From NCBI RefSeq assembly GCF_027595985.1, contig NC_073304.1:220944500-221008499 (forward strand): a DNA stretch of 64,000 nt, given 5' to 3'. Source of the DNA: Sorex araneus (taxonomy: Eukaryota; Chordata; Mammalia; Eulipotyphla; Soricidae). The translations under genes were made by a program, and so were the position numbers. The notes under the pieces were generated by a model. That model searched no databases. It was not told where the DNA came from and worked only from the letters and a program-made list of their open reading frames with translations. Positions 6,425 to 61,840 of the stretch are shown here, piece by piece; position 1 is the first letter of the stretch, and each line of letters opens with the position of its first letter.

Positions 6425-8040
6425 TATGGAAAAAATGTTCTATATCACTAATCATCAGAGAAATGAAGATCAGAGCAACAGTTGGAGATCATCTCATGCC
6501 ACAGAGACTGGTACTCATCAAAGAGAACAACAATAACTAGTGTTTACGAGGATTTGGGGGAACAGGGCTCCTCATTCACTGCTGTGAGAATGCTAACTGA
6601 CCCAGCCTTTCTGGGAAGACAATATGGACATTCCTCAAAACACTAAGAATTAAACTTCCATATGACTGGCAAAGGAACCCAGGTGTGTGGGACCTGGGGC
6701 CTAGATCTCCAAGGCTGCTCAGATTGGGACTGGGCCTCTTCTACCCAGATTCTCCATTTTCCCATAGCTAGGCAGTCACACCCAGAAACCTCCCACCCCA
6801 GCTCCCACACACACACACATACCATGTAATCCCTTCAACAGCCAACATCCAGAGAATATAAAACCAAGCTCCCAGAAGCGTGCGGATGCAATCACACAAC
6901 ATCTGATACCCTAGTTATCCCTCTTGGAAAACCTGGCAAGTTACCGAGAGTTTACTGCCCACACGGGAAAGCTTGGCAAGCTCCCCATGATGTATTCACA
7001 TGCCAAATAGAATAAGAATGATGGGTCTCATTCTCCTGACCCTGACTAGCCTCTAATGAGGCACCGTTGGGAAGGACAAGTAAAGAGAGGCTGCTAAAAT
7101 CTCAGGACTAGGATGAAGGAGCCATTACTGGGCCCGCTCAAGCAATCGTTGATCAGCGGGATGACAGTAATACATACTTGCAGAAAGCCCAGCAAGCTAC
7201 TGAGAGTATCCCGCCCATTCGGGCAGAACCTCGTAAGCTACACGTGGCGTATTCAATATGCCAAAAACAGTAAAGCTAGGTCTCATTCCCCTGACCCTGA
7301 AAGAGCCTCCATTCATTGGGAAAGACGAGTAAGAAGAGACTGCTAAAATCTCAGGGCTGAGAGAAATAGAGACGTTACTGGTGCCCGCTCGACTAAATCG
7401 ACGAACAACGGGATGACAGTGATACAGTGATGACCCAGAAATTCCACTCTTGTGAATATATCCTAAGGGCCCAAAAGCACAATGCCTAAAAGACGTCTGC
7501 ACTCCTAGGTTCATTGCAGCACTATATACAACCGCCAAAATATGACAACAGTCCAAATACCCACGAATAGATGACTGGATAAAGAAGCTATGGTATAGAT
7601 TCACAATAGAATATTGCCCAGCCATATAGGAGATACAGTCATGCAATTTGCTGCAATGTGGATGGATCCGAAGAGCATCGTGTTGAGTGAAATGAGTCAG
7701 AGGGAGAGGAAAGGACTCAGAACCATCTATCTCAAACTTTGTAGGGGAACCTCAAATGTCCAATGGCAATGGAAACAATGAGCTGAACTGGTCTTCAGTA
7801 GGAACTTGCCACTGGGGCAGAGGTGGGAGAAAAGTTTGTGAGGGGAACAGTAGGACAATGAGATGGCTGGATAAAGTGCCTGCTACAGGGGCAGAGGGGG
7901 TAAGGGGGAGCAGGGGAGACGGGTGGAGAGTAGTGGACACTAGTGAAGAGATTGGTGTTAGAACAATGTATGCCTGCATCTCAATCATAAATATCTTTGT
8001 AACTTTGTAATTCACAGGGATTCAAAACAAAATTTTTTAA
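6425..8040 (+). mobile_element. L1 LINE 3' end, split by an RTE-tailed insertion
   Basis: The 5' portion (6425-6667) carries the L1 catcagagaaatgaagatca and ccacagagactggtactc blocks. The L1 resumes at about 7431 with tgacccagaaattccactc and continues through the cactatatacaaccgccaaa block to a poly(A) end near 8040. About 760 bases of foreign sequence (6668-7430) sit between the two halves. No L1 ORF is intact. Confidence 0.85.
6668..7430 (+). mobile_element. Composite RTE-tailed non-autonomous element with two tandem SINE II modules
   Basis: Two related modules follow each other, ending near 7172 and 7430. Each has the SINE II core (ctaccgagagt-like, gcccgctc, ctaaaatctcagg) and ends with a cgggatgacagt tail. 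The second module starts at agcccagcaagctac. The first is preceded by about 165 bases unrelated to SINE I. The shared ending gttactggtgcccgctcg(a/c) resembles the RTE LINE 3' end at 58836-58885. The insertion lies inside an L1; a short atgac repeat at the junctions is a possible target-site duplication. Confidence 0.7.
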
Positions 8041-8247: not shown

Positions 8248-8565
8248 GACATTCACGATTACGATCATGATATCCCATTAATCACCGATTTCTCAAGCGG
8301 GCTCAGTAACATCTCATTTTGACCTTTCCCTGAGATCTTAGAAATCCATCTGGACTCGGCCCTCCTAAAGTTGTTGCTCTGGGGGCTCTTCAGGGTCAGG
8401 GGAATGAGATCCAGCTTGTTACTGGATTTTGCATATGAATTGCATATGAATACACCATGGGAAGCTTGCAAGGCTGTCCCATGTGGGCAGGAAACTCTCA
8501 GAGCATTGCCAGTTTCTCCCAGAGGGAGAAGTAGGCCAAAGATATCCCGGGGCCTCAAAGCATGT
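8248..8565 (-). mobile_element. SINE II (RTE-tailed), antisense, flanked by a long direct repeat
   Basis: Read on the minus strand it ends in gagcccgcttgagaaatcg and gggatatcatgatcg, the family's RTE-like tail, and upstream carries gtaacaa(g)-type and ccagagagggag-like SINE II segments. Both sides carry about 70 nearly identical bases (tgctgggtgtggtcccc through cctgggagacatt). Confidence 0.75.
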
Positions 8566-31967: not shown

Positions 31968-32640
31968 CAAGAACCCAGTAACCCTGGGTCCCGGGTGGTA
32001 GAGGCGGTTGGGGAGAAAGTGACAGTCGAGTCACCTGTGGGGCCCACCGACATCACCAGGACATGACACGTGGATTAACTGGAGAGACATAGTCCAAGCG
32101 ACTAGGGCGCTGGCGTCCTGACCTGAGGCCAGCCATTATGGCAGCCTGGAGATGCATGCGCGCACACTTAGGCACTGCTTGACCTTAGCAACTGCAAGCC
32201 CCTCCCCCGAGCACCTTTATGCCGCCTTTAAGCAGCCTTTATTGGGTCCAGGCAGAGCCTGGTCCCTGTAAACAGCAGGAGCCAGGCTTTCCTTCCTCCC
32301 TGGCAGGCACAAAAGATGTTCAATCAGGTCCTCTTCCCACCCCCTCCGCCCACCCCCAGCTTCCCCTCCCCACCCCTGCCAGCCAAACAGGACTGGGACT
32401 GCCAACTACTCTGGGCCTAGCCCCATGGTGGAGGTGAGGAGGGGAAGGAACAGTGTGTCCCTGGGTGGGCACGCTGGCGAATTCAACAGTACTAGTCCAC
32501 TTGTGGTGGTCTTGGTGCGTCCTCCTCACTACTGAAATCCGAGACACATTCTTCCACCCCTTGGCCATTCTGCTTCCAAGAAAGCTAGCTGACCTGCAAA
32601 AGGAGCACTACTTAGGGTGGATGGGGGTTCACAAATGTTC
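31968..32640. other. Unassigned GC-richer DNA
   Basis: It could include an ERV leader just after the LTR (about 31970-32060). The rest has no recognised domain or repeat. The ORFs here are proline- or glycine-rich and unsupported. Confidence 0.4.
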
Positions 32641-32651
32641 TCATTTCCTTT

Positions 32652-32845
32652 ATGTTTTTTTTTGTTTTTTTTTTTTTTTTGCTTTTTGGGTCACACCCGG
32701 CGATGCACAGGGGTTACTCCTGGGTCATGCACTCAGGAATTACTCCTGGTGGTGCTCTGGGGACCATATGGTATGCTGGAAATCGAACCCGGGTTGGCCA
32801 GGTGCAAGGCAAATGCCCTACCCGCTGTGCTATTGCTCCAGCCCC
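32652..32845 (-). mobile_element. SINE I, full length
   Basis: Perfect 14-bp target-site duplication ttctcatttccttt at 32638-32651 and 32846-32859. Near-consensus. Confidence 0.96.
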
Positions 32846-33424
32846 TTCTCATTTCCTTTGAACTCTCAGTATCTCTGATTATTTATCAGTCTCCGAGAGA
32901 GGGGATAGCATGGAATCAATGACCCAAAATTTTCTGAAGGAAAGATCTGGGGCCATAAACAGTTTATTCTGGGAGACCGACCTTAAACTGAATGAACACT
33001 CATATACACTCCTTTACACAGGCCTGGGGAAAATCCCCCTGTCTTGCATGGAGCTCAACATTAACCATAGAGAAAAAGTAGCAAGCCCCTTTCTAGAGGG
33101 CTGCCTGCCTTTCTAGCACTCCTAGAGAAACCACTGAAGACCCTAACATCAGAATGTAACAAGACTCTCTTGCCATACTGTGACTAGCACCCAATTTACT
33201 TTCTTCACAGTCCTTCTCATCATTTTCAGTTCTCATTATCTCACACTTCTAGAATATAAATTCAGTGAGAAGGGGCTTCCTCCCAGTGTCTAATTGAGTA
33301 GAGAGCTTTGAATGGAGTTGGTTCCAAGAGTGGCCTCATTTAGGGATGGATGTTAGTTTTCTGAATTCTTTGGCATTAGTACTAAATGTCTTCTCACGTT
33401 TCACAGTAAGGTGGACGTTTTTTG

Positions 33425-33560
33425 TTTGTTTGGGGGCCACACCTGTAGGTGTTTGAGGTTGCTCCTGGCAGTGCTCTGGAGGCCATGCAGTGGCAGGTAT
33501 CAAACCCAGGTCTCCCTCACGCACAGTCCATGCTCTAGCCTGATGAACTGTGTCTCAGGC
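33425..33560 (-). mobile_element. SINE I, antisense, diverged
   Basis: Starts tgtttgggggccacacctg, ends tctcaggcccc. The B-box side is altered. Confidence 0.7.
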
Positions 33561-33846
33561 CCCTAAGCTAGTCTTGTTAAGACTCCATTGTAGGTGTTTG
33601 AATTTTCTTGATGAGTTTGATTTAACTATTTTAAAAATTATTGTTCAAAACTAGGTCAATAGTTCAAACAATTGAGTCCTTCAGTAAGCTCCTCAAAAGT
33701 CCTATCTTCCACAGCTATTTGACCACTTTCTGAAATAGAGTTAACAGAGATCAATTCAAAATAATTGTCTAAAATGACCTTTCTCTGAAGGTAGTACTCA
33801 ATGATATTAGGTGTGTTCTTCCTTTATACATCAAATAATTTTATTT

Positions 33847-34029
33847 ATTTTTTGCTTTTTCGGTCATGCCCAGCGATGCACAGGGGTTATCCAGTCTCAT
33901 GAACTCAGGAATTACTCTTGATGGTGCTTGGAGGACCATACGGGATGCTGGAAATCTAACCTGGGTGGCCGAGTGCAAGGCAAACACCCTACCCGCTGTG
34001 CTATCGCTACAGCGACACCGCCCCCCCCC
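33847..34029 (-). mobile_element. SINE I, antisense
   Basis: Flanked by the duplication aataattttattt (33834-33846 and 34030-34042). The head side ends in a C run, accgcccccccccc, an unusual expansion. Confidence 0.92.
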
Positions 34030-34114
34030 AATAATTTTATTTTGAAAGCATAAAATAAGAGCACTTTCCTTTTCAATGCAGACATTAAGTTTGGTTCTTT
34101 TTGTTTCTCTGTTT

Positions 34115-34425
34115 TGAGCCAGACTCAATGCTGTTCAAGAATTTTACCCACTTAGAACTTGGGAGTCACTCCTGGCAATGCTGTGCTGAGCTGGAACTGA
34201 AACTATGCATCCTGCATGCCAAGAGTGTACTCAGTCTTCTGAGCTATCTCTCCCACCCACTGCTTCTTGTACTTCTTTTATATTTTGGGTGTAGGGATCA
34301 TATCCTCTGGTACTCAGGGGCTATTTCTGGCTCTGTGCTCCCTGGTGGTGCTAGAGGGGACCACATGCTGTGCCAGGGATATGCAAGGCAGGTACCTTGG
34401 CTCCAGTACCATCTTCTTAAGCCCT
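34115..34425 (-). mobile_element. Two adjacent diverged SINE I copies
   Basis: The first ends at ctgagctatctctcccacccac (about 34258). The second begins ttttgggtgtagggatcat and ends tccagtaccatcttcttaagccc. Both are in the same orientation. Confidence 0.65.
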
Positions 34426-34664
34426 GAATGGTTCTTAAAGGTTCTTATAGTTGATAGAAATTTTACTAGATGACCAACGAAGTCACTTTTACTAGAAGAA
34501 CTGCCCAGACTACAAGGCTGAAGTCAACCCAGCGTCAACTCGTGTAACAATATAAGATCTCTGACAACTTAAAATTTCTAAGACTGCAGGTATATAGAAC
34601 AAGGAGAGCAATTCTGTTTGTGGATTCTCTACTGATTCTTCAGTTTCCTTCGAGGAAAAAATAT

Positions 34665-34712
34665 AAATAATATATATATGTATATATATATGTATGCATG
34701 TATGTATGTATA

Positions 34713-34758
<46 letters not shown>
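34665..34758. repeat. (TA)n / (TATG)n microsatellite
   Basis: Alternating ta with gtatg interruptions, at the left end of a duplicated block. A similar run is at the left of the second block copy (39078-39115). Confidence 0.95.
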
Positions 34759-34760
<2 letters not shown>

Positions 34761-35695
34761 CACAACAGGCTCAACTGTTAACAATATGTCAGTAAGCTCT
34801 TACTGAAGGGCTTAATGGTCCCTGGGGGAAATACAACAATCTTCACATACTTTCTCTAAGGAAACATTTTTGGAGCATTTTCAACAGTTGGAGCGATAGC
34901 ACAGCGGTTGGGCGTTCACCTTTCACTCGGATGACCCGAGTTCGATTCCTCCGCCCCTCTCAGAGAGCCCAGCAAGCTACCAAGAGTATTGAGCCTGCGA
35001 GGCAGAGCCTGGCAAGCTACCCGTGCGTATTGGACATGCCAAAAACAGTAACAATAAGTCTCTCAATGAGAGACGTTACTGGTGCCCGCTCGAATAAATC
35101 GATGAGCAACGGGATTCAGAACAAACAATACAAAATAAATTCTTTTGTTCTGCTTTGGGGCTGGAGTTCGGGATCGGGATGGAAACATCCAAAATACCAT
35201 GATAGGAAGGTGTAATGGTGGAGGTATTTAAATATTAAATGTAATAAAATATTGTGAATTACTCTATAAATTTAAAAAGAAAACAGGATCTTGAGAAAGG
35301 TTTGGTAGTGGCATAGATGAGCTGGTTTCTCCCTGAGATTCACTTACTAGAGTCTGTTCCAGTTCTTTTTCTAACATCCCGGTTTTTTTGACTGTATACC
35401 CTAGGCCTAAGTGCCATAGATTCTGGGGGGAAAACATTTAATTAGTTTATTTCATTATCTAGATGAAGGTTTTGCTGGGATAACAGAAGATTACACATGA
35501 TCTATACTTGAAAGATTACTTTGGAACAAAGAAGATTGTTGCCCCAAATAGGAGAAACACTGTTCCCATCCCATGCCCCTAATCTTCGTGGTAGGAAGAC
35601 AGCTCTCAAATTGTGAAGTTAAGGTTCTGTCAGAGTGATAGTACAGCAGGTAGAGCACTTGCCTTGCATGTAGCCAACCCAGGTTTGATCTCCAG
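34757..35695 (+). repeat. Duplicated block, copy 1
   Basis: From aagcacaacaggctcaac to the SINE I head near 35695 the sequence matches 39112-39830 closely. The match extends beyond the interspersed-repeat 3' end into single-copy-looking sequence (gattttgctgggata, agaagattgtt). Copy 1 has an extra SINE II at 34891-35112. Confidence 0.85.
34891..35112 (+). mobile_element. SINE II: SINE I-like head with RTE-like tail
   Basis: The head gttggagcgatagcacagcg and B-box-like gagttcgattcc correspond to SINE I. After about 80 bases it switches to ctctcagagagcccagcaag, then aaaaacagtaacaa, then gttactggtgcccgctcg and caacggg. Copy 2 of the block shows the empty site (cagcagttgattcag at 39236-39250). 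No clear target-site duplication is visible beyond one or two bases. Confidence 0.9.
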
Positions 35696-35795
35696 CATCC
35701 CACAGAGTCCTCTGAGCACCGTCAGGAGTGATTTCTGAGTGCTGAGCCAGGAGCATCATTAGGTGTCCCCAGCACGTCCACTTCCCCCACCCCAC
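35625..35795 (+). mobile_element. SINE I, sense
   Basis: Head tctgtcagagtgatagtacag. Its first approximately 60 bases are also in copy 2 of the duplicated block, so it predates the duplication. Confidence 0.85.
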
Positions 35796-35917
35796 CCCCT
35801 AAAATTCTGTTCGTAACTACCTAAGGTTTAAACAAGTATTGTTAAAAACATCTGCCTAAGGCTTTAGCAGTTTAGCAAGGAGAGGGCTGTTTCTGATGTA
35901 TCTGAAAATATGATGAG

Positions 35918-35981
35918 GGAGGGGGAGAGAGAGAAAGAGAGAGGGGGGGGGGGGAGACAGAGAGAGAGAGAGAGAGAGAGA
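35918..35981. repeat. (GA)n / G-run purine microsatellite
   Basis: gggagagagagaaagagagag, then a G run, then (ga)n. Confidence 0.95.
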
Positions 35982-36414
35982 ATTCTTACCCACACCCCCA
36001 TTCCAGTCCCCACAGAGACCTCACAGTTTATCCAAAGTCTCCTTAGCTATGCCAACTCCAGGGCTCTTGCAATCAAAGGGTGACAATACCACCTCTAAGC
36101 ACAGAAGATCTTTATGCTTTTCTTCTGAAATGGTGCCACAATATCTTCATTTTCCCTTTCTTCAAGGTCAGAAAGATCCTGAAGCTGGATTTTAGATTGA
36201 AGGTCCTTCTGAACATCTCAATGCAGATTTTAAACTGTTTAATTAAAAACAAAACCTCAATTCCAGCAATCCGTGCTAACAGTTGAAGTAACCTGTGACT
36301 TCAACATTAAGCCAAACTTTCCATGAACTACACCAGCCACACACATACAGAGCACAAAAGTGCTATATGACACCACCATCAATTCACTGAGATCTTGATT
36401 GATTCTGGGGTGTG

Positions 36415-36490
36415 AACGGTGCTCAGAAACTTTCACTTTCAGCACAGGCTCTGCACTTGAACTTTCAGCACAGGCTCTACACTTGAACTC
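36415..36490. repeat. Short tandem duplication (about 30-bp unit)
   Basis: The unit around cttgaactttcagcacaggc appears twice in a row, with a third partial start (ttcactttcagcacaggctc) just before. The overlapping minus-strand ORF has no recognised domain. Confidence 0.75.
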
Positions 36491-36754
36491 TCTCTCCACT
36501 TCCACCTTCACAATCCTTTTATACCATCCATTGAAACCAAAATAGTAGTCTGCCAGTTCCTGGCACTGGGAGCTGTTTAGGGCAAGGACACGATGCTGAA
36601 CTGCTTTATGTCTGCTGAGACGAACCTAAAGACAGAAGAGACATACTCGAGGATAGGAACGACTTGCCACAGAGATCTAATTCAGCTGACCCAAGACTTC
36701 TCAATACAACTTTCATAAAGTGGCTGTGAAGAGCAAATCAAACAAACTTTGGTG

Positions 36755-36925
36755 GTTGCTGTTGTTTTAGAGCCATACTCAGCAGTAATCAAATACTCCT
36801 AGCTCTGTGCTCCGGGATCACTCCAGGTGGTGGTTGGGGCAATCATATATGCTACTGGGTATAGAACTAGGCTGGCAGCAGCAAGGTCAGCACATTAACT
36901 CCTGGCCTATTTCTTTGGTCCTTAA
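36755..36925 (-). mobile_element. SINE I, antisense, old
   Basis: Landmarks ttttagagccatactcagcag, ctctgtgctccgggatcactcc and ctatttctttggtcc. 35982-36750 and 36926-37230 otherwise show nothing recognised. Confidence 0.6.
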
Positions 36926-37243
36926 ACATTTTAGGCGTTAAGTTCATAGTAAGGACTAATACTCATTATTTTCAAGCCATGGTACTTTTCTGCATTATTT
37001 CCATAGTCTCCCATTAATTTGAGCGTTTGTTTCCCTGATTCTGCTGGTCAGTGAAAGTATAAGTCAGGAAGATCTTCAAGACTGTAGATAAGCAAAAGAA
37101 GTAAATTGCTTCAGTGATTCTATCTAGCAGCTCTTGTCTGAAACTATAAGCTGAAGGAGAGCTAAGACAGACATGCCCCCAAGGAAGGACCTCCATGTGT
37201 AACACTCCCCTCTCCAAATTATTAGCCTTGCTAGAAGAGACTA

Positions 37244-37498
37244 TGCAGCACTGTCGTAGCACTGTCATCCCCTTGCTCATCGATTTGCTCTAGTGTGCAC
37301 CAGTAACGTCTCTATTGTGAGACTTCTTGTTACCTGTTTTGGCATATTGAATACACCATGGGTAGCTTGCCAGGCTCTGCCCTGTGGGCGGGATATTCTT
37401 GGTAGTTTGCTGGGCTCTCCAAGAGGGACAGAGGAATCGAACCCGGGTCAGCTGCGTGCAAAGTAAATGCCCTACCCTCTGGGCTATCGCTCCAGTCC
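37244..37498 (-). mobile_element. SINE II, antisense, with target-site duplication
   Basis: On the minus strand it starts with the SINE I-type head (ggactggagcgatagccc), passes through the B box gggttcgattcc and the agcccagcaaactacc block, and ends ggtgcacactagagcaaatcg followed by gatgacagtgc. The duplication agaagagacta is perfect at 37233-37243 and 37499-37509. This copy best shows both the tRNA-like head and the RTE-like tail. Confidence 0.93.
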
Positions 37499-37699
37499 AG
37501 AAGAGACTACAGTATAGTTATTTTTATAGCAATTTATGAGTAACTCTCATCTGCATAAGAGCTTCCTTATGAAATAAAAGCTATGTCTGTTATTAATTCT
37601 CTAGATACACATTATTGTGGACTTCTTACAACATTAGTTCTTAAATGTCAAATTCAACTTTCAGCCAGCATGTAGTATATGAACATATTATAAAAATTC

Positions 37700-38069: not shown

Positions 38070-38165
38070 AACAGAATTTGACATATCTCATACTGCTAAT
38101 ATTCCAAGAGTAGCACTCCACATTGGATGGGGTTTAAAATAGAAGGCAACCAAACTTAGGGAATA
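38070..38165 (+). mobile_element. Fragment of the ERV internal family seen at 18.8 kb
   Basis: ttgacatatctcatactgct and accaaacttaggg closely match 18785-18875. It ends directly at the RTE fragment. Confidence 0.75.
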
Positions 38166-38169
38166 TATA

Positions 38170-39075
38170 TTCCTCGAGAACATCATGCAACTACTGGAAT
38201 GGGAAGGAATGGGAGTGAATATAGATGGTTGGCAACTATACCACCTCTGCTTCGCTACTGACATTGTTCTCATAACACCAAACATTAGCAAGCGGCACAA
38301 ATGCTGGCCGACTTCAACTGCGAGTATGAAAGGTCGGACTGCAGTTGAATCTCAGCAAAACAGTATTCATGAAAAACGAACTAGTCCCTGACATTCCATT
38401 TGCTCTCAATGGAACATAGATCTCTGAATGCAGCAGTTATGTGTACCTGGGTCAAGAACTCAACATGAGAAACTACTTGGTGCCAGAATTGCCCAGGAGG
38501 AAGAGAGCAGTGTGGAACACTTTCAAGAGCATCGAGGAAGTGGTTAAGAGGACAAAGAACCTCCAGCTGGCCACCACTTTTCAACTCCATGGTTCTTCCT
38601 GCACTAACATAGGCCTCAGAGACCTGGGCCCTACAAAAACAGGATGAGAACGATATTCAGGTATCCCAAAGAGGAACTGAAAGAGCCATGCTTGGAGTAT
38701 CATGTTTCACTCAAGTGAAAGAAGGAATCCGGAGTCCAGACATCCGTCAACGGTCAAGAATCAGGGACGATGTCTCGTTTGTCAAGGCGTCAAAAATCAG
38801 ATGGGCCGGACGTGTAATGGGATTCAGAGACAACCACTGGACTAGAGCTGTTACTGACTGGATTCCATGGGACGTCAAAAGACCGCATGGCCACCCACCA
38901 ATAAGATGGCCACACTTCTTTGTCAAAACCCTGAATGAACGGTTTGAGGCTCTTTGTGTTCCTGGAGTGAGCAGATATCATTGGGCTACACTAGCACGTG
39001 ACAGAGACGAATGCAGACATTACTGGAGCCCGCTTGAGCAAATTGAAGATCAACAGGATGACAAGTGATACATGT
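38170..39075 (+). mobile_element. RTE-clade LINE, 5'-truncated 3' half of the ORF
   Basis: Pieced over frames, the sequence encodes the end of a non-LTR reverse transcriptase. YHLCFATDIVLITPN (about 38238-38283) is the palm motif, where the usual FADD reads FATD, so an active-site Asp is lost. SYVYLGQELNM follows at about 38430. The C-terminal part is 38688-39068 (RAMLGVS, RSRIRDDVSF, KIRWAGRVM, DWIPWDVKRPHG and ARDRDE). The WAGH-like, DWIPR and RPPxRW series is typical of RTE/BovB-type proteins. The stop is followed by tgatacatgtgata, then a TA repeat. Frameshifts near 38330 and 38640 make it inactive. Resemblance is to nematode-type RTE proteins as I remember them. Confidence 0.85.
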
Positions 39076-39111
39076 GATATATACATATATATATATATAT
39101 ATGTATATATA

Positions 39112-39830
39112 AAAGCATAGGAGGCACAGCCTTTAACAACATGTCAGTAAGCTCTTATTGAAAGGCTTAATGGTGCCTGGGGGAAATACAACAAACTTCA
39201 CATACTTTCCTCTAAGGAAACTTTTGGAGCATTTTCAGCAGTTGATTCAGAACAAACAATACAAAATGAATTCGTTCATTTTGCTTTGGGCCTGGGGTTT
39301 GGGATTGGGATGAAAACATCCAAAATACAGTGGTAGGAAGGTGTAATGGTGGTGGAATTGGTGTTCAAATATTGAATATAGTAAAATATTGTGAATTACT
39401 CTATAAAATTAAATTAAAAATAAAAACAGAAGCTTGAGAAAGATTTGTTAGTAGCATAGATGAGCTTCTTTCTCCCTAAGATTCAACTACCAGAGTCTGT
39501 TCCAGTTCTTTCACTAACAGCCTGCCTTTGACTGAATATCCTAAGCCTAAGTGCCATAGATTCTGGGGGAAAAACATTTATATTAGTTTATTTCATTATC
39601 TAGATGAAGATTTTGCTGGGATAATGGAAGATTACACATGATCTATACTTGAAAGATTACTTTGGAACAAAGAAGATTGTTATCCCCAAATAGGAGAAAC
39701 ACTGTTCCCATCCCCATACCCCTGAGCTTCTTGGTAGGAAGACAGCTCTAAAATTGTGAAGTTCAAGGTTCTGTCAGGGTGATAGTACAGCAGGTAGGAC
39801 ACTTGCCTTGCATGTAACCAACCCAGAATT
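39112..39830 (+). repeat. Duplicated block, copy 2
   Basis: Direct-orientation match to 34757-35695, without SINE II. It ends inside a SINE I head (gtgatagtacagcaggtagg at 39778), where the duplication boundary cuts the SINE. It abuts the RTE 3' end on its left. Confidence 0.85.
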
Positions 39831-40011
39831 GACTATAGTGTCTCTATAAGGTAAGGGAAAATAAAATTTCAAAAACAAAGTTAAATTAAATTTAAAAAAA
39901 AATACACCAAACCAGGGCGAGCTGTCCCTTTCACCAGGAGGCTGGCAGCAATGAAGGAGAGAGACAATCAAAATTGGTGGTGAAGATATGTAAAACGTAC
40001 TGTACCTTTTA

Positions 40012-56907: not shown

Positions 56908-57878
56908 GTTGCAGGGAGCTGCCTGCTCATGCAGGGTCCTTATTTGGACATAGCCCTAGGAGCTGCCTCACACAGAGGGCCAAGAACACTTGGCATAGTT
57001 CCCTGTACTGCCACCCCCAGTACGCAGAGAAGCTATTATATTGCCAACCCAAGCCTATAGAGATTAATACATTCCCACCCTTAGCCTACTGAGAAGTTAA
57101 CAGGATATAGATGTGTTAATAGATTAGTAATCCCATCAAGGGCCAAGATCCAGAGACAATATGAAACAAATCTCCCAGAAGCATGAGGCCACTTTGTGGC
57201 TGCACAACCACTTATAGTCTAGCCCACTGATGTGCCTAAAGCAACACCCATGTGTTAGGTTTTAACAAACTTGCTTCTATTCACTGATATACACTCTCCA
57301 TTCCTCTCAGAGAGTCTGGCAAACACCGAGAGTATACCGCCCACATGGAAGAGCCTGGCAAGCTCCCCGTGGCATAATCGATATGCCAAATACAGTAATA
57401 GTTAAAGGTCTCATTCCCTTGACCCCGAAAAAGCCTCCAATCATTGGGAAAGACAAGCAAGGAGAGGCTACTAAAATCTCAGGGTTGGGATGAATGGAGA
57501 CTTTACTGGTGCCCGCTCAAGCAAATCGATGAACAACGGGATGACAGTGATATAGTGACAGTGAATAGATTAGTAGGATACACACGTAGCTGTACGGTCT
57601 GCTAATCATTAAAAGGTTTAGGAATGATCAGGTTGTTCCCCATTGCATTTTGTTATGATCAAAGAAATGTATGATCTTAGGAATATGCTTTTTGCCATTA
57701 CAATGGATGACAATGCTTGCCAAGTTCCTGATAGAGATGTAGAAAAGGCTGCTTCAAATAAAGATCGAGGCTGCTGGTCCACAAGCACTCAGACCTCTCA
57801 ACCACTTATTTGTCTGTGTCTTTAAGATCCTCACCTTCCCTCTTAGCCCATTCCTTTGACAGCCCGCATGCCCTCTAA
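56908..57878 (+). mobile_element. ERV 5' LTR, interrupted (boundaries approximate)
   Basis: A poly(A) signal (caaataaagatc at about 57755) and a cttatttgtctgtgtcttt end are followed at 57880 by a primer-binding-like sequence, so the LTR 3' end is near 57878. The 5' end is a guess at tgttgcaggg near 56908. A 434-bp RTE-tailed element (57130-57563) with its duplication splits U3. Confidence 0.55.
57130..57563 (+). mobile_element. RTE-tailed composite element with perfect target-site duplication
   Basis: The 12-bp direct repeat aatagattagta is at 57118-57129 and 57564-57575. Inside, the 5' part (catcaagggccaagatccag) is not SINE I-like. The 3' part has the SINE II core (agagtctggcaaacaccgag), then ttactggtgcccgctcaagc and cgggatgacagtgatatag. 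A related 5' part precedes the array at 6840. Confidence 0.88.
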
Positions 57879-57897: not shown

Positions 57898-57997
57898 CAA
57901 GAGGAACAGAGGTGTGTGGCCTGGAAAAGACAAGGCAGCTGCGGAATAGGTAAGGAAGTCTGGGGCGGGACAGATATTGCTGAGTAAGGGGGGACAA

Positions 57998-58385
57998 TGG
58001 AGCAACAATTAAGTAATCAAAAACTGTTTGCACAGATGCTTGCTTTCATGATTCAAAGTGGAGGTTTAAAGTAAAATAAAGTCAGATTGTAAAATTTTTG
58101 CAGCATGTACATTCTGTTTCTCCTTGGTTTCCTAGCCAAGGAATTCTAAATGAGCCAACTCGGAAACAAGAGCTTGGATCAAGATCTCCAGCAGCATTTT
58201 AATAATTGTGGTCCTGATAAAACTCCAGTAGATAATTTTGCTCTCTGGACATTTATTATGGAAGGGATCTGCTTCCAGGAAGAAAAATGTGTTCCAGAAC
58301 AAAAAAGGGAGAAAATAGAAACTAAGGAGGAGCCAGAACAAGGGACAGTCCTTCGGGTCCTCCCACTTCCACAGCTCCTATAGTA
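57998..58385 (+). pseudogene. Betaretrovirus-like gag matrix remnant
   Basis: An ATG at 57998 opens a frame with QKLFAQMLAFMIQSGG, resembling the first matrix helix of betaretroviruses. It has no Gly2, so the myristoylation signal is absent. It stops after 25 codons. A second frame from 58150 has LQQHFNNCGP and VDNFALWTFIM, the matching later matrix segment with the conserved aromatic-Trp pair; it runs acidic/lysine-rich to 58381. Several stops separate the parts. Capsid and nucleocapsid do not follow; an RTE fragment is inserted at 58461. Confidence 0.7.
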
Positions 58386-58460
58386 GCTGTTTTAGAAGAA
58401 GAAAGTACTAACAATCTTATAGCAGATCTGTTACAAAAATTAACTGTTGTTCCTATTAAA

Positions 58461-58890
58461 CAGGATGAGAATGCTATTCGGGTATCCCAAAGAGGAATCA
58501 AAAGAGCTATGCTAGGAGTATCACGTCTCACTCAAGTGAGAGAAGGAATCTGGAGTTCAGACCTCCGTCAACGGTCAAGAATCAGGGACGATGTCTCATT
58601 TGCCAAGGCATCAAAAATCAGATGGGCCGGACATGTAATGCGATTCAGAGACTGGTCTAGAATTGTTACCGACTGGATTCCACGGGACATCAGAAGACCC
58701 CGTGGCCGCCCACCAATGAGATGTTCAGACTTCTTCATCAAAACCCTGAATGAACAGTTTGAGGCTCTTCCTCTTCCTGGAGCTAGCAGATATCATTGGG
58801 CTACACTAGAATGCGACAGGGACAAATGGAAATGTTACTGGTGCCCACTAGAGCAAATAGAAGGTCAATGGGATGACAAGTGATACAAAA
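58461..58890 (+). mobile_element. RTE-clade LINE, short 3' fragment inside the ERV
   Basis: From caggatgagaatgctattcg the frame runs open for about 140 codons to a stop at 58881: RAMLGVSRLTQVREG, RSRIRDDVSFAKASK, IRWAGHVMRF, DWIPRDIRRPRGRPP and WATLECDRDK. Compared with the copy at 38641-39068 it keeps WAGH and RPRGRPPMRW, while the older copy has WAGR and RPHGHPP. The tail after the stop is short (tgatacaaaagtgatatt). The 5' truncated insertion is sense to the ERV. Confidence 0.9.
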
Positions 58891-59140
58891 GTGATATTCC
58901 TTGAAGATACTCAGCTTCTTCCTCCATATTCTGAGAGGCAATCTGTGTGGGAGGAAGCGATTGCAAAGGCTACAGCAGCAGGAGAGGATGTCAGGGAATT
59001 TACTCTATCTCTTGTCAGACTGAATGTGCAAGGAAACCGTGTGCATAATAGTCTTACCCTCAAGGAAATTAAATGGGTGTGGTTTGGGTCGCACCCTCCC
59101 TGGATTTTCCCCCACGGTCACTGTCGAGTGAGCAGACCCA
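58891..59140 (+). pseudogene. ERV gag/pro remnant
   Basis: The frame after the RTE fragment reads LLPPYSERQSVWEEAIAKA, then FTLSLVRLN, a fragment I place in gag by its Pro-rich start and position. It then joins pol-like sequence near 59090-59140. The rest of gag, the zinc knuckles and protease are deleted. Confidence 0.5.
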
Positions 59141-59655
59141 GTAGTTTGGCTTTCTGATACACCTGTCTGAATTGAGCAGTGGCCACTTAATAAAGAAAAT
59201 CTCGCTGCTGCAGAATAGTTCAAGGACAATTATATTTGGGACATATCGTGCCTTCTAATTCTCCCTGGAACTCACCAATTTTTGTAATAAAAAAGAAATC
59301 TGGTAAGTGGAGGAGGCGACGAGATCTTAGAGCAGCTGATGACATATGCAGACTATGGGAGCTCTGCAGCCGGCCTGCCAAGTCCTGTTGCTATTCCTGG
59401 TCTGTATTACAAAGTTGTTTTGGATTTAAAAGATTGCTTTTTTACTACACCTTTGCAAGAAAAATATTGTGGTTGCTTTGCCTTTCATGTTCCTAACATT
59501 AATTTACAAAACCTTATGAACATTATTATTGGGTTGTTTTACCCCAAGGAATAAAAACAGCCCCACTTTGTGTCAAAAGTTTGTAGCTAAAGCTATTCAG
59601 CCTATAAGAAAATTATATGAGCGTGTCATTATTTACATGATATGAATGATATATG
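59140..59655 (+). pseudogene. ERV reverse transcriptase, fingers and palm, decayed
   Basis: Frames in order show [20 protein letters not shown] (59234-59293), a [20 protein letters not shown] region at 59370-59427 with the first catalytic Asp context, and SPTLCQ-like sequence near 59560-59580. The active-site loop at about 59635-59650 is out of frame and reads Met-Asn-Asp instead of Met-Asp-Asp. These are class II (betaretrovirus/ERVK) RT features. At least three frame changes and stops are present; the enzyme cannot be made. Confidence 0.82.
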
Positions 59656-59687
59656 TATAAATAAATATATATATATATATATATATT

Positions 59688-59857
59688 TGCTTTTTGGGTC
59701 AAACCTGGCGATGCACAGGGGTTACTCCTGGCTCATGCACTCAGGAATTACTCCTGAGGGTGCTCGGGGGATCCTATGGGATGCTGGGAATCAAACCTGG
59801 GTTGGCTGCGTGCCAGGCAAACACCCTACCCGCTGTGCTGTCACTCCAGCTCCCTGA
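59688..59857 (-). mobile_element. SINE I inserted at the ERV RT active-site region
   Basis: Antisense copy, tttttgggtcaaacctggcg to ctgtcactccagctccc, after a (TA)n stretch grown from its tail at 59665-59685. Confidence 0.92.
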
Positions 59858-60440
59858 ATGTTATTCTTATGGCTGCCAAAATTGAAGATTTAATAAAAGA
59901 AGCATATGTGGCATTACAAGATAATCTTAAGAAATGGGGACTTGTTATAGCACCAGATAAAATCCAATGGAAAGCCCCATATGAATATTTCAGCTATAGG
60001 TTATTACAAAACCGAATTGTGCCACAAAAAGTGCAAATTTGGAGAGATTGTTTGAAAACTTTAAATAATTATTAAAAATCACTTGGAGATATTAATTGGA
60101 TTCTACCTGATTTAAAATTAACTACTGGGAAATTAAAACCTCTTTTTGATATGTTAAAAGGTGATGCTGATCCTTTATCCCCCAGGGAGTTAACTCCAGA
60201 AGCTTCCTTGGCATTAGAAGCAGTAGAAGAGTATCTTCAAGCGGCTCAGCAAAAATACTTGAATTATAATCATCATTATCCTGGTGATAGATTGTTACAA
60301 CTTGCCTTAAAGACATCTTTTATCTTTCCCCATGTTGTTAAAGACTTCTATTGCAGGGGCCTTAACTGTATTTACTGAGGGCACCCCTAAAGGATTTGCT
60401 AGTATAGTTGTGAAAGATACACTTCAGTTGTTTTCTATTT
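59858..60440 (+). pseudogene. ERV RT thumb/connection remnant
   Basis: Frame LIKEAYVALQDNLKKWGLVI with APDKIQWKAPYEYF (59890-59995), then [20 protein letters not shown] after a stop (about 60080-60140), then [19 protein letters not shown]. This is the thumb and connection portion expected after the RT palm, in correct order and strand. Stops at 60073 and 60377. Confidence 0.82.
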
Positions 60441-60777
60441 CTATTGCATCTGCACAGCAGTGAATTATATGCTATTTGGAAAACTTTGCAATTATGGAAA
60501 GACATTTTGAATATTTTTATGGATAGCTACTATATAGCAAAAAATTTGCCAGCAGTAGAAACAGGCATTTTGTCTCAAATGAGTACCTCTCCCATTGTTA
60601 CTTTGTTTATTAATAATCAGCAATGCTTGCAAGCCCGGACCTCTAGGGTGTATATAGGACATATCAGAGACGTGTGGTGTCTATATAGGACATATCAGAG
60701 CCCATTCAGAGTTACCAGGTCCTTTATCTGAAGGCAATGAGCAAGCAGACCTTGCTCTTAGATATCATACTATTCTT
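60441..60777 (+). pseudogene. ERV RNase H and start of integrase, decayed
   Basis: ELYAIWKTLQLWKDILNIFM and DSYYIAKNL resemble the RNase H region with its conserved Glu and the DSxY segment. A small tandem duplication (tataggacatatcagag) lies at 60651-60700. Integrase begins near the end. Confidence 0.7.
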
Positions 60778-60787
60778 ACACCTGAAC

Positions 60788-61040
60788 TGTCACTGTCATC
60801 CTGTTGCTCATAGATTTGCTCGAGTGGGCACCAGTAACATCTCCATTGTGAGACTTGTTGTTACTGTTTTTGGCATATCAAATATGCCACGGGTAGCTTG
60901 CCAGGCTCTGCCATGCGGGCGAGATACACTTGGTAGCTTGCCAGGTTCTCCGAGAGGGGCAGAGAAATCGAACCCATGTCGGCCACATGCTAAGCAAACG
61001 CCCTAGCTGCTTGGCTATCGCTCCAGCCCAGGCTATCGCT
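60788..61040 (-). mobile_element. SINE II, antisense, inside ERV integrase
   Basis: Perfect 10-bp duplication acacctgaac at 60778-60787 and 61041-61050. The minus strand has the SINE I-type head (gctggagcgatagc, duplicated once as gcctgggctgg) and ends gtgcccactcgagcaaatc with ggatgacagtgacagt. Confidence 0.95.
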
Positions 61041-61050
61041 ACACCTGAAC

Positions 61051-61457
61051 AGTCAAATAAATTACATCCTCAAAATGCAAAAGCCTTTCAATATCAATTT
61101 GGACTTACTAGAAAGGCAAAAATTGTTAAAAATTGCCCTGCCTGTGCACGTCATTTCAGAATAGTTTCTGATGGGGTTAATCCAAGAGGACTCCTTCCTA
61201 ATGAATTATGGCAAATGGATGTTACTCATGATCCTTAATTTGCAAAATTGAAATTTATTCATGTTTCTGAGGACACGTTTTTAGGTCTGATCTTTGAAAC
61301 TTGACAAACTGACGAGGCCTTTAATAATGTATCACGTCATTGTTTTAGTCCATTTTTTCAATTTGGTATTCCACAATCCTGTAAGACTGGTAATGGCCAG
61401 GATATACTGGTAACGCATTTTATACTGGTAGCACATTTTAAAACTTTTGCGTTCACT
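61051..61457 (+). pseudogene. ERV integrase remnant, truncated at its 3' end
   Basis: The frame has AFQYQFGLTRKAKIVKNCPA with CARHF, containing the CxxC of the integrase zinc-binding domain; the matching His pair lies before it. LPNELWQMDVTH follows (about 61195-61230), the first catalytic Asp strand. Further on GNGQDILVTH is the equivalent of the second catalytic strand, with its Asp changed. The ERV ends at about 61457: no third catalytic residue, env or 3' LTR. The right flank is a host exon 38 bases away. Confidence 0.8.
61254..61259 (-). terminator. Candidate polyadenylation signal supplied by ERV sequence
   Basis: The minus strand reads AATAAA 236 bases after the stop codon of the gene ending at 61495. 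It lies within the ERV integrase remnant. A second canonical signal closer to the stop is not seen. This is position-based inference only. Confidence 0.35.
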
Positions 61458-61494
61458 GTGGGGCCTCTAACACCATGTCCTCCGGTGATGGTTC

Positions 61495-61840
61495 CTATTG
61501 CTCCTCATCAATCTGAGTTGAGATCTCCAGTGATGACAGGATCTCCTGGGATCTGAAGGACTCTCGTGCATGGGGGACCTGTGGAGCCTTGATGGACTGT
61601 CGTGCTGAGAGGGGCTGTGAAGACCTGATGGACTGTCGTGACTGGGGGGGAGTCTGTGGTGTCAGGGTGTCATGTAGAGATTTGCTGGTCTGTCGTGCCA
61701 GGGGGACAAGTGGTGGTGGGGGGTGCTGAGGTGCCTGAGTCTTCCGTGCTCCCTGGGACTTCATGGCTGCCTTGGTCTCCTTGGCTGCTTTCTCCTCAGG
61801 AGTCAGTTCTGTTTTCACTACTCCGACCTCCCTGAGCTCC
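61495..61840 (-). CDS. Last coding exon of a membrane-protein gene (LRRC37-tail candidate)
   Basis: The acceptor cttgttccag precedes 61840. Codon phase (one base, then GAG) fits the donor of the exon at 61936. The frame stays open to TAG at 61497-61495: ELREVGVVKTELTPEEKAAK, a basic/Ala-rich helix-like stretch, a Pro run, then four loose repeats (ARQTSKSL, SRQSIRSSQ, ARQSIKAPQ, ARESFRSQE), ending STQIDEEQ. Low complexity and Ser/Arg/Gln-rich, so a cytoplasmic disordered tail. I do not recognise it with certainty. Position next to PLEKHM1 remnants on the same strand makes an LRRC37 C-terminus the leading idea. An ERV fragment begins 38 bases after the stop. Confidence 0.6.

Follow-up and report, generated by a model that had tools for sequence, protein, structure and literature searches.

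Retroposons at the flagged locus and in the window

The 64,000-nucleotide stretch of Sorex araneus DNA analysed here (the window) carries three copies of a short retroposon, SINE II, together with copies of a second family with an A-rich tail, SINE I, two truncated copies of an RTE LINE and four headless, RTE-tailed elements termed X (Table 1). All three SINE II copies start with a head that is common to SINE I and close with sequence that matches the two RTE fragments (58458-58897, 38637-39080) at their 3' end, and the pairwise identity of the three copies is 81–83%. The two RTE fragments are themselves 85% identical over these intervals. SINE I gave 36 matches in the window, three of which are the heads of SINE II, leaving 33.

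Table 1. Retroposon features of the window (positions count from its first letter)
Feature	Position	Strand	Remarks
SINE II copy, young type	34889-35115	+	flagged by the sequence-only reading (at 34891); 3'-truncated, no target duplication
Flagged copy: head of tRNA origin, with A and B boxes, as in SINE I	34889-34950	+	
Flagged copy: body derived from RTE 5' leader	34951-35060	+	limits by consensus position
Flagged copy: tail derived from RTE 3' coding end	35066-35115	+	
SINE II copy, older type	37260-37500	-	given as 37244 in the sequence-only reading; target duplication TAGTCTCTTCT
SINE II copy, older type	60791-61031	-	lies among retrovirus-like remnants; by reading, flanked by the direct repeat tacacctgaac
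Example SINE I copy	32660-32850	-	A-rich tail; target duplication AAAGGAAATGAGAA
5'-truncated RTE LINE copy	38137-39080	+	part of reverse transcriptase, 3' end
5'-truncated RTE LINE copy	58458-58897	+	C-terminal coding end, tail repeats
Headless X (RTE 5' leader region joined to RTE 3' end)	57303-57558	+	
Headless X	6917-7174	+	
Headless X	7181-7431	+	
Headless X, old, degenerate	8272-8535	-	
Paralogue of 34712-35688	39068-39832	+	the flagged SINE II is absent here, its empty site lying at 39244

When the genome (2.406 Gb, 65 contigs) was searched with a SINE II query, 40 matches were scored out of 4390 first-look candidates, and each spanned 218–222 of the 222 query bases. Target-site duplications were detectable in 18 of the 32 non-redundant, 5'-complete SINE II copies, as is the case for the dispersed copies of a SINE. 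Given these near-complete matches and duplications, the copies do not owe their resemblance to chance. The duplication of the copy at 37260-37500 was found by rule at a near-identical copy (L065) and is readable in the window too. Next to the copy at 60791-61031, a second short head start (gcgatagcct, within 61030-61050) lies between its 5' side and the direct repeat, and looks as if the start of the template had been copied twice. The surrounding retrovirus-like remnants, recognised by reading, extend over 57900-61500 and are interrupted by an RTE fragment, SINE I and SINE II.

The flagged copy itself is an atypical member of the family. It has the letters ttactggtgcccgctcgaat, breaks off at gggat and lacks gacagtg; no target-site duplication was found at it. 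In the paralogue at 39068-39832, which is 88% identical to the flagged locus before the insertion point and 87% after it, the empty site is uninterrupted, with cagttg directly followed by attcag. Eleven further copies of the same insertion, 97–100% identical, lie on contigs 3 and 7, and the junction letters of all these loci (L001-L012, where L003 is the window itself) fit one single insertion. As they represent one duplicated segment, we judged the behaviour of the family more from the 18 dispersed loci L013-L030 and from other copies. Queries placed at 34891, 38137 and 58468 outlined the segment pattern: the window seemingly lies in a segment present about 12 times at 97–100% identity, on contig 3 (220.4-223.7 Mb) and contig 7 (3.6-13 Mb), and a further set at approximately 94–95% identity on contig 7 was seen with two of the three queries.

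The LINE-derived part of SINE II and the headless element X

SINE II is very probably a chimeric, non-autonomous retroposon made of the head of SINE I, a body from the 5' leader of the RTE LINE and a tail from its 3' coding end. The head (~67 nt, pol III) would be that of the host's L1-type SINE I, the body (~110 nt) would correspond to a leader segment shortly upstream of the open reading frame (ORF) of the LINE, and the tail (~53 nt) would represent the 3' coding end, followed by (ACAGTG)n-type repeats. The agreement scores for head, body and tail given below compare consensus with consensus, the old SINE II consensus having been written by hand from two window copies.

The sequence-only reading had likened the tail of SINE II to the 3' end of the RTE, and this parallel is borne out. 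Over the stretch that begins with AATGGAGACG and ends with GATGAC, the old SINE II tail agrees with the RTE 3' consensus, built from 19 non-redundant copies out of 47 matches, at 51 of 53 positions; when the terminal repeats are included, the agreement is 56 of 61 positions, with three gap columns. As to the two end strings that were quoted for SINE II, an RTE-like end is present in all three window copies, but ttactggtgcccgctcgagc is a consensus that occurs literally in none of them, and gggatgacagtg is literal in the copy at 37260-37500 but only there among the three. In translation the SINE II tail gives QWRRYWCPLEQIDEQRDD; 15 of 18 residues match EWRRYWRPLEQIDDQRDD, with which a Nippostrongylus protein ends. 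Because the tail thus corresponds to the coding end of the RTE, matching the C-termini of nematode RTE proteins, capture ran from the LINE to the SINE. The pattern of the tail was found at 0 places in viral contigs. Folding z-scores of the tail were -1.6 for old SINE II, -2.2 for young SINE II, -1.0 for X and 0.2 for the RTE, which weakly supports a terminal hairpin; for the whole SINE II RNA the score was -1.8.

The earlier view of SINE II as a SINE head that had captured a LINE 3' end holds for the head, the tail and the direction of capture. It is incomplete, however, in that the middle of approximately 110 nt also comes from the RTE, namely from the 5' leader, so that a second part of the LINE was acquired. 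The consensus body agrees with the RTE leader at 104 of 111 positions. At locus L080, on the reverse strand, the sequence matches the SINE II body from about position 823 and runs on into the RTE ORF. The same contiguity of body and ORF was seen in all 40 genome copies scored (out of 8548 first-look candidates), L080 included; 35 of them cover all 389 bases of the joint query, and the other five start at base 3-13, which is still before the body. It was also apparent in the six loci that we read (L080 and L088-L092). L080 and five others that were read have about 300 nt more leader upstream in common, and some extend over more than 400 nt. Since the leader reaches some 300 nt or more further upstream, the SINE took an inner part of it, close to the ORF. 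Concerning the start of this ORF, most nematode proteins begin with MAICTFN or MTICTFN, whereas for one Haemonchus protein the prediction places the start further upstream. The region above the MAICTFN/MTICTFN start is present in X and in the RTE and missing from SINE II; compared with the Haemonchus protein, it is 73% identical over 62 residues in the RTE and 69% over 36 residues in X. Within the SINE II body, as in the RTE leader segment, the motif gagcc.ggcaagctacc occurs twice, some 45 nt apart, and might represent a protein-binding element.

None of the four RTE-tailed X elements of the window has a visible tRNA head. In a hand-made X consensus, both RTE pieces lie in one reading frame. 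The two X elements at 6917-7431 are arranged almost head to tail, a few bases apart, and the second is without its first bases. Upstream of the body, X copies (57127-57195, 6830-6870, L079 and L084) have an additional stretch in common, around atccagaga.tataaaaccaagctcc, and an X-like element at L071:2271-2467 has part of its middle missing. L084:338-491 is another deletion derivative of the RTE, whose 3' piece is longer and whose tail is of SINE type; we had considered it an RTE LINE with such a tail and dropped this, as L084:395-491 belongs to the deletion derivative.

How SINE II relates to X can be read from diagnostic letters. The RTE LINE tails sampled carry GAAGATCAA and ACAAGTG, SINE II and X carry GATGARCAA and ACAGTG. 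The SINE-type letter at site 38 appeared in three of 22 presumed RTE tails, and these turned out to be SINE II copies (L019, L022) and the derivative L084. The exact partner, an RTE subfamily with the tail letters of SINE II, was not found among the RTE LINE tails sampled; as all queries behind this sample had one type of tail, such a subfamily may exist. As the shared tail letters GATGARCAACGGGATGACAGTG are absent from 19 RTE tails, a common bipartite ancestor of SINE II and X is suggested. X as the direct parent of SINE II is weakened by several body sites at which SINE II agrees with the RTE against X, and for this reason we view the sampled X copies as cousins rather than parents.

The RTE part of SINE II may have come through a headless deletion derivative and not through capture of a 3' end alone. 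In the mechanism that we consider likely, the RTE enzyme, while reverse transcribing an internally deleted, X-type RTE RNA, would jump to a SINE I RNA, and the jump would fuse the SINE I head to the RTE part where both have a short CC. LINEs of the RTE clade are reported to switch templates in part of PMC4476161. A direct fusion of LINE RNA and SINE I in one step, without any headless intermediate, is the most tenable alternative, although we consider it the less probable course. It would account for the body letters in which SINE II equals the RTE and differs from X (sites 16, 46, 65 and 91, among others), but not readily for the tail letters that SINE II and X share and that occur in 0 of 19 RTE LINE tails, for their common body letter at site 35, or for the bipartite build of both.

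The shared head, target sites and mobilising enzymes

The heads of the SINE I and SINE II consensus sequences agree at 64 of 67 positions, and the proposal of a common head stands. After ttcgattcc the families diverge, SINE I continuing into its A-rich tail and SINE II into tctgcccctctcggagagcc and then the RTE-like end. The A and B boxes of a type 2 pol III promoter are readable in the consensus of the head. ARAGORN called both consensus heads tRNA-Ala(tgc) at a low score, the SINE I head being drawn with mispairs. Rfam, applied to 32600-37600, returned eight matches: seven microRNA-like ones on a TA repeat and one tRNA match to a single SINE II head (37425-37493, reverse strand) at 22.8 bits, under the cut-off of 29. 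SINE II could in principle have taken its head straight from a tRNA gene, independently of SINE I, given that both heads resemble tRNA-Ala with the same ARAGORN call and that capture of a tRNA head is usual in RTE-moved SINEs, according to the relevant passages of PMC3747384. This is improbable, as so many positions are shared even though both heads are degenerate as tRNAs, by their mispairs and their sub-threshold Rfam score, which argues for one SINE ancestor of both heads. SINE I itself is probably the Sor (SOR) SINE of shrews, an assignment made by description and not by letters: like SINE I, Sor is a pol III SINE of shrews, and it is placed in the T- class in the passages concerned of PMC8466645, PMC11240701 and PMC7279448.

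To compare insertion sites, an identical duplication rule was used for both families, and copies with too-short flanks or nearly identical to one already taken were dropped before counting, which left 41 SINE I and 32 SINE II copies that were 5'-complete and non-redundant. A duplication was detectable in 22 of the 41 SINE I copies, next to the 18 of 32 for SINE II, and none was found by the rule in the other 19 and 14. The samples behind the signatures are small (18 SINE II, 22 SINE I and 3 RTE). A TTT run at positions -13 to -9 before the duplication was present in 7/18 SINE II copies versus 0/22 SINE I copies (Fisher p 0.0017); compared with the upstream background of SINE II itself (6.6%; SINE I background 9.6%), the enrichment had a p of 9e-5. 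Conversely, the duplication started with AAA in 13/22 SINE I copies versus 0/18 SINE II copies (Fisher p 8e-5), where the SINE I count is inflated because the poly(A) tail blurs the start of the duplication, an effect that does not directly touch the T-run count. An earlier count with other settings gave T-runs in 8/17 SINE II versus 1/19 SINE I copies, and AAA in 0/17 versus 12/19. The first base of the duplication was A in nine of the 18 SINE II copies. Among 18 RTE LINE 3' ends, three had a clear duplication and 15 none that was clear; a T-run preceded two of the three, by reading.

Bov-B LINEs and their SINEs, and likewise plant RTE LINEs, are reported to have a T-run about 10 nt before the duplication, whose first base is A in the LINEs and T in the SINEs (in the parts of PMC13295347 that deal with them). 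The T-run upstream of SINE II fits this site signature of the RTE clade (PMC13295347, same parts). The A-rich tail and A-rich target start typical of L1 are present in SINE I and absent from the 18 SINE II copies with duplications. For SINE I, the sequence-only reading of a poly(A)-ended, L1-type element is upheld by the A-rich tails in the window and by the AAA target starts; its further suggestion that the mobilising partner was switched agrees with target signatures that differ between the families in the direction expected for L1 and RTE.

One promoter head thus appears to be moved now by two different enzymes. Pol III would most likely transcribe SINE II from its head, judging by the A and B boxes; the ends taken from the RTE would then be recognised by the RTE protein, which would nick DNA at sites of RTE type and start reverse transcription there, while SINE I would continue to insert at its own L1-type sites, giving one head with two engines. 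L1 mobilises unrelated RNAs, and with a head nearly identical to that of SINE I, SINE II might likewise be moved by L1 and carry its RTE sequence as a passive passenger. We regard this as very unlikely: the 18 copies with duplications show no poly(A) tail and mostly end in acagtg-type repeats, and both the AAA starts and the T-runs separate them from SINE I. Mobilisation of SINE II by the RTE protein remains our preferred reading.

Copy numbers and ages were estimated from a non-random sample of 158.6 kb, comprising the window plus off-target flanks, with pieces of at least 60 bp counted. It held 81 pieces of SINE I, 17 of SINE II (one of them, L075, with the body only) and seven of X, a count that leaves out an eighth match, the leader of the RTE copy L080. 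If the sample is representative, SINE II has on the order of 10^5 copies. The median CpG-free K2P distance to the consensus was 0.144 for SINE I (n=81), 0.133 for X (n=7, hand-made consensus), 0.068 for old SINE II (n=15) and 0.042 for young SINE II (n=2); two RTE tails, at 0.047, are too few to place the LINE in this order. Young SINE II copies with duplications are 93–98% identical to their consensus, in a search that favoured copies near the query. SINE I and X look older than SINE II, and since SINE I is more diverged than old SINE II in this sample, it was apparently spreading first. A derivation of SINE I from SINE II by loss of the RTE part, for which one could cite the same head and the young members of both families, is the least credible of the alternatives in view of this greater divergence of SINE I.

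The RTE engine, related systems and implications

A search with a 609-residue partial consensus of the RTE reverse transcriptase yielded 935 matches at E<=0.001 among 7999 scored candidates. Among the best 120 of these, 107 carry a name, and all 107 are from strongylid nematodes; the other 13 are unnamed and include the three best (80, 79 and 77% identity). The best named relative within these 120 is from Ancylostoma, at 76% identity; the 16 best are 71–80% identical or close to that, and many carry PF00078 and PF03372. At the protein level, the RTE engine belongs to a lineage that it has in common with strongylid nematodes. A nematode-shrew transfer has been published for RTE1_Sar, an RTE that occurs in both the common shrew and strongylid nematodes, in the passages concerned of PMC6542046. 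That the LINE was horizontally acquired, as the sequence-only reading had it, is in keeping with this publication and with the named relatives among the 120 best matches being nematode throughout. The partner LINE seems to fit RTE1_Sar, to which we liken it by its strongylid protein relatives and not by Repbase letters; being a common-shrew RTE shared with strongylid nematodes, RTE1_Sar agrees with the relatives of the RTE found here. The main text of PMC6542046 does not contain the word SINE; nor does it name Neomys, Cryptotis or Crocidura, and its passage on Suncus concerns parasites.

The design of SINE II has known relatives. SINEs mobilised by Bov-B were reportedly described by Gogolevsky et al. 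in 2008. They include Bov-tA and Bov-A2 in ruminants and Ped-2 in the springhare, which, like SINE II, combine a tRNA head with parts of an RTE-clade LINE; Ped-2, whose head came from an existing SINE (ID), is a precedent for the head of SINE II, and Bov-A2, which starts with the Bov-B 5' end, is a headless counterpart like X here (in part from the sections of PMC3747384 on these families). The Bov-B systems differ in belonging to another RTE lineage and other hosts, whereas the engine of SINE II is of nematode type and its head comes from the shrew SINE I. SINEs mobilised by AviRTE in birds, such as ManaSINE1, have several different heads, which derive from genes for tRNA-Glu, 5S or 28S RNA or from GC-rich sequence, and again involve another RTE lineage and host (from the part of PMC4844689 that treats them). 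In other mammals, AfroSINE/RTE1_LA, RTE1-N1_LA and RTESINE1 comprise RTE-partner SINEs and headless derivatives with an RTE 5' end, yet they also rest on other RTE lineages (PMC3747384, same sections). The LINE part of SINE II, as its alignments indicate, is bipartite (5' leader plus 3' end), as in the Bov-B and AviRTE SINEs.

No description of a SINE partner of RTE1_Sar was found in the literature searched, with Repbase, Dfam, SINEBase and most subscription journals lying outside this search, and the SINE II family may already have an entry in a repeat database. Three features are apparently new within the literature searched: the LINE partner, the host, and the pairing for comparison with a sister SINE that has the same head and L1-type sites. 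We hold the full scenario to be evenly balanced, in which, after the entry of a nematode-type RTE, an L1-type head was fused to both RTE termini and reached some 10^5 copies with the spread of the head by L1 continuing.

If this is true, the same build of leader plus 3' end, seen with Bov-B, with AviRTE and now with this RTE, would imply that, besides the 3' end, the RTE protein requires a signal from the 5' leader in cis. SINEs moved by RTE keep gaining a segment of the 5' leader, which a simple model of 3'-end recognition does not require. SINE I and SINE II would offer a natural comparison of two engines in one genome, with one promoter head, two tails and two target signatures, and would make testable which parts of an RNA the RTE protein needs. 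The published nematode-shrew transfer would thereby be extended to a likely consequence, namely a large secondary expansion of a SINE driven by a parasite-type LINE.
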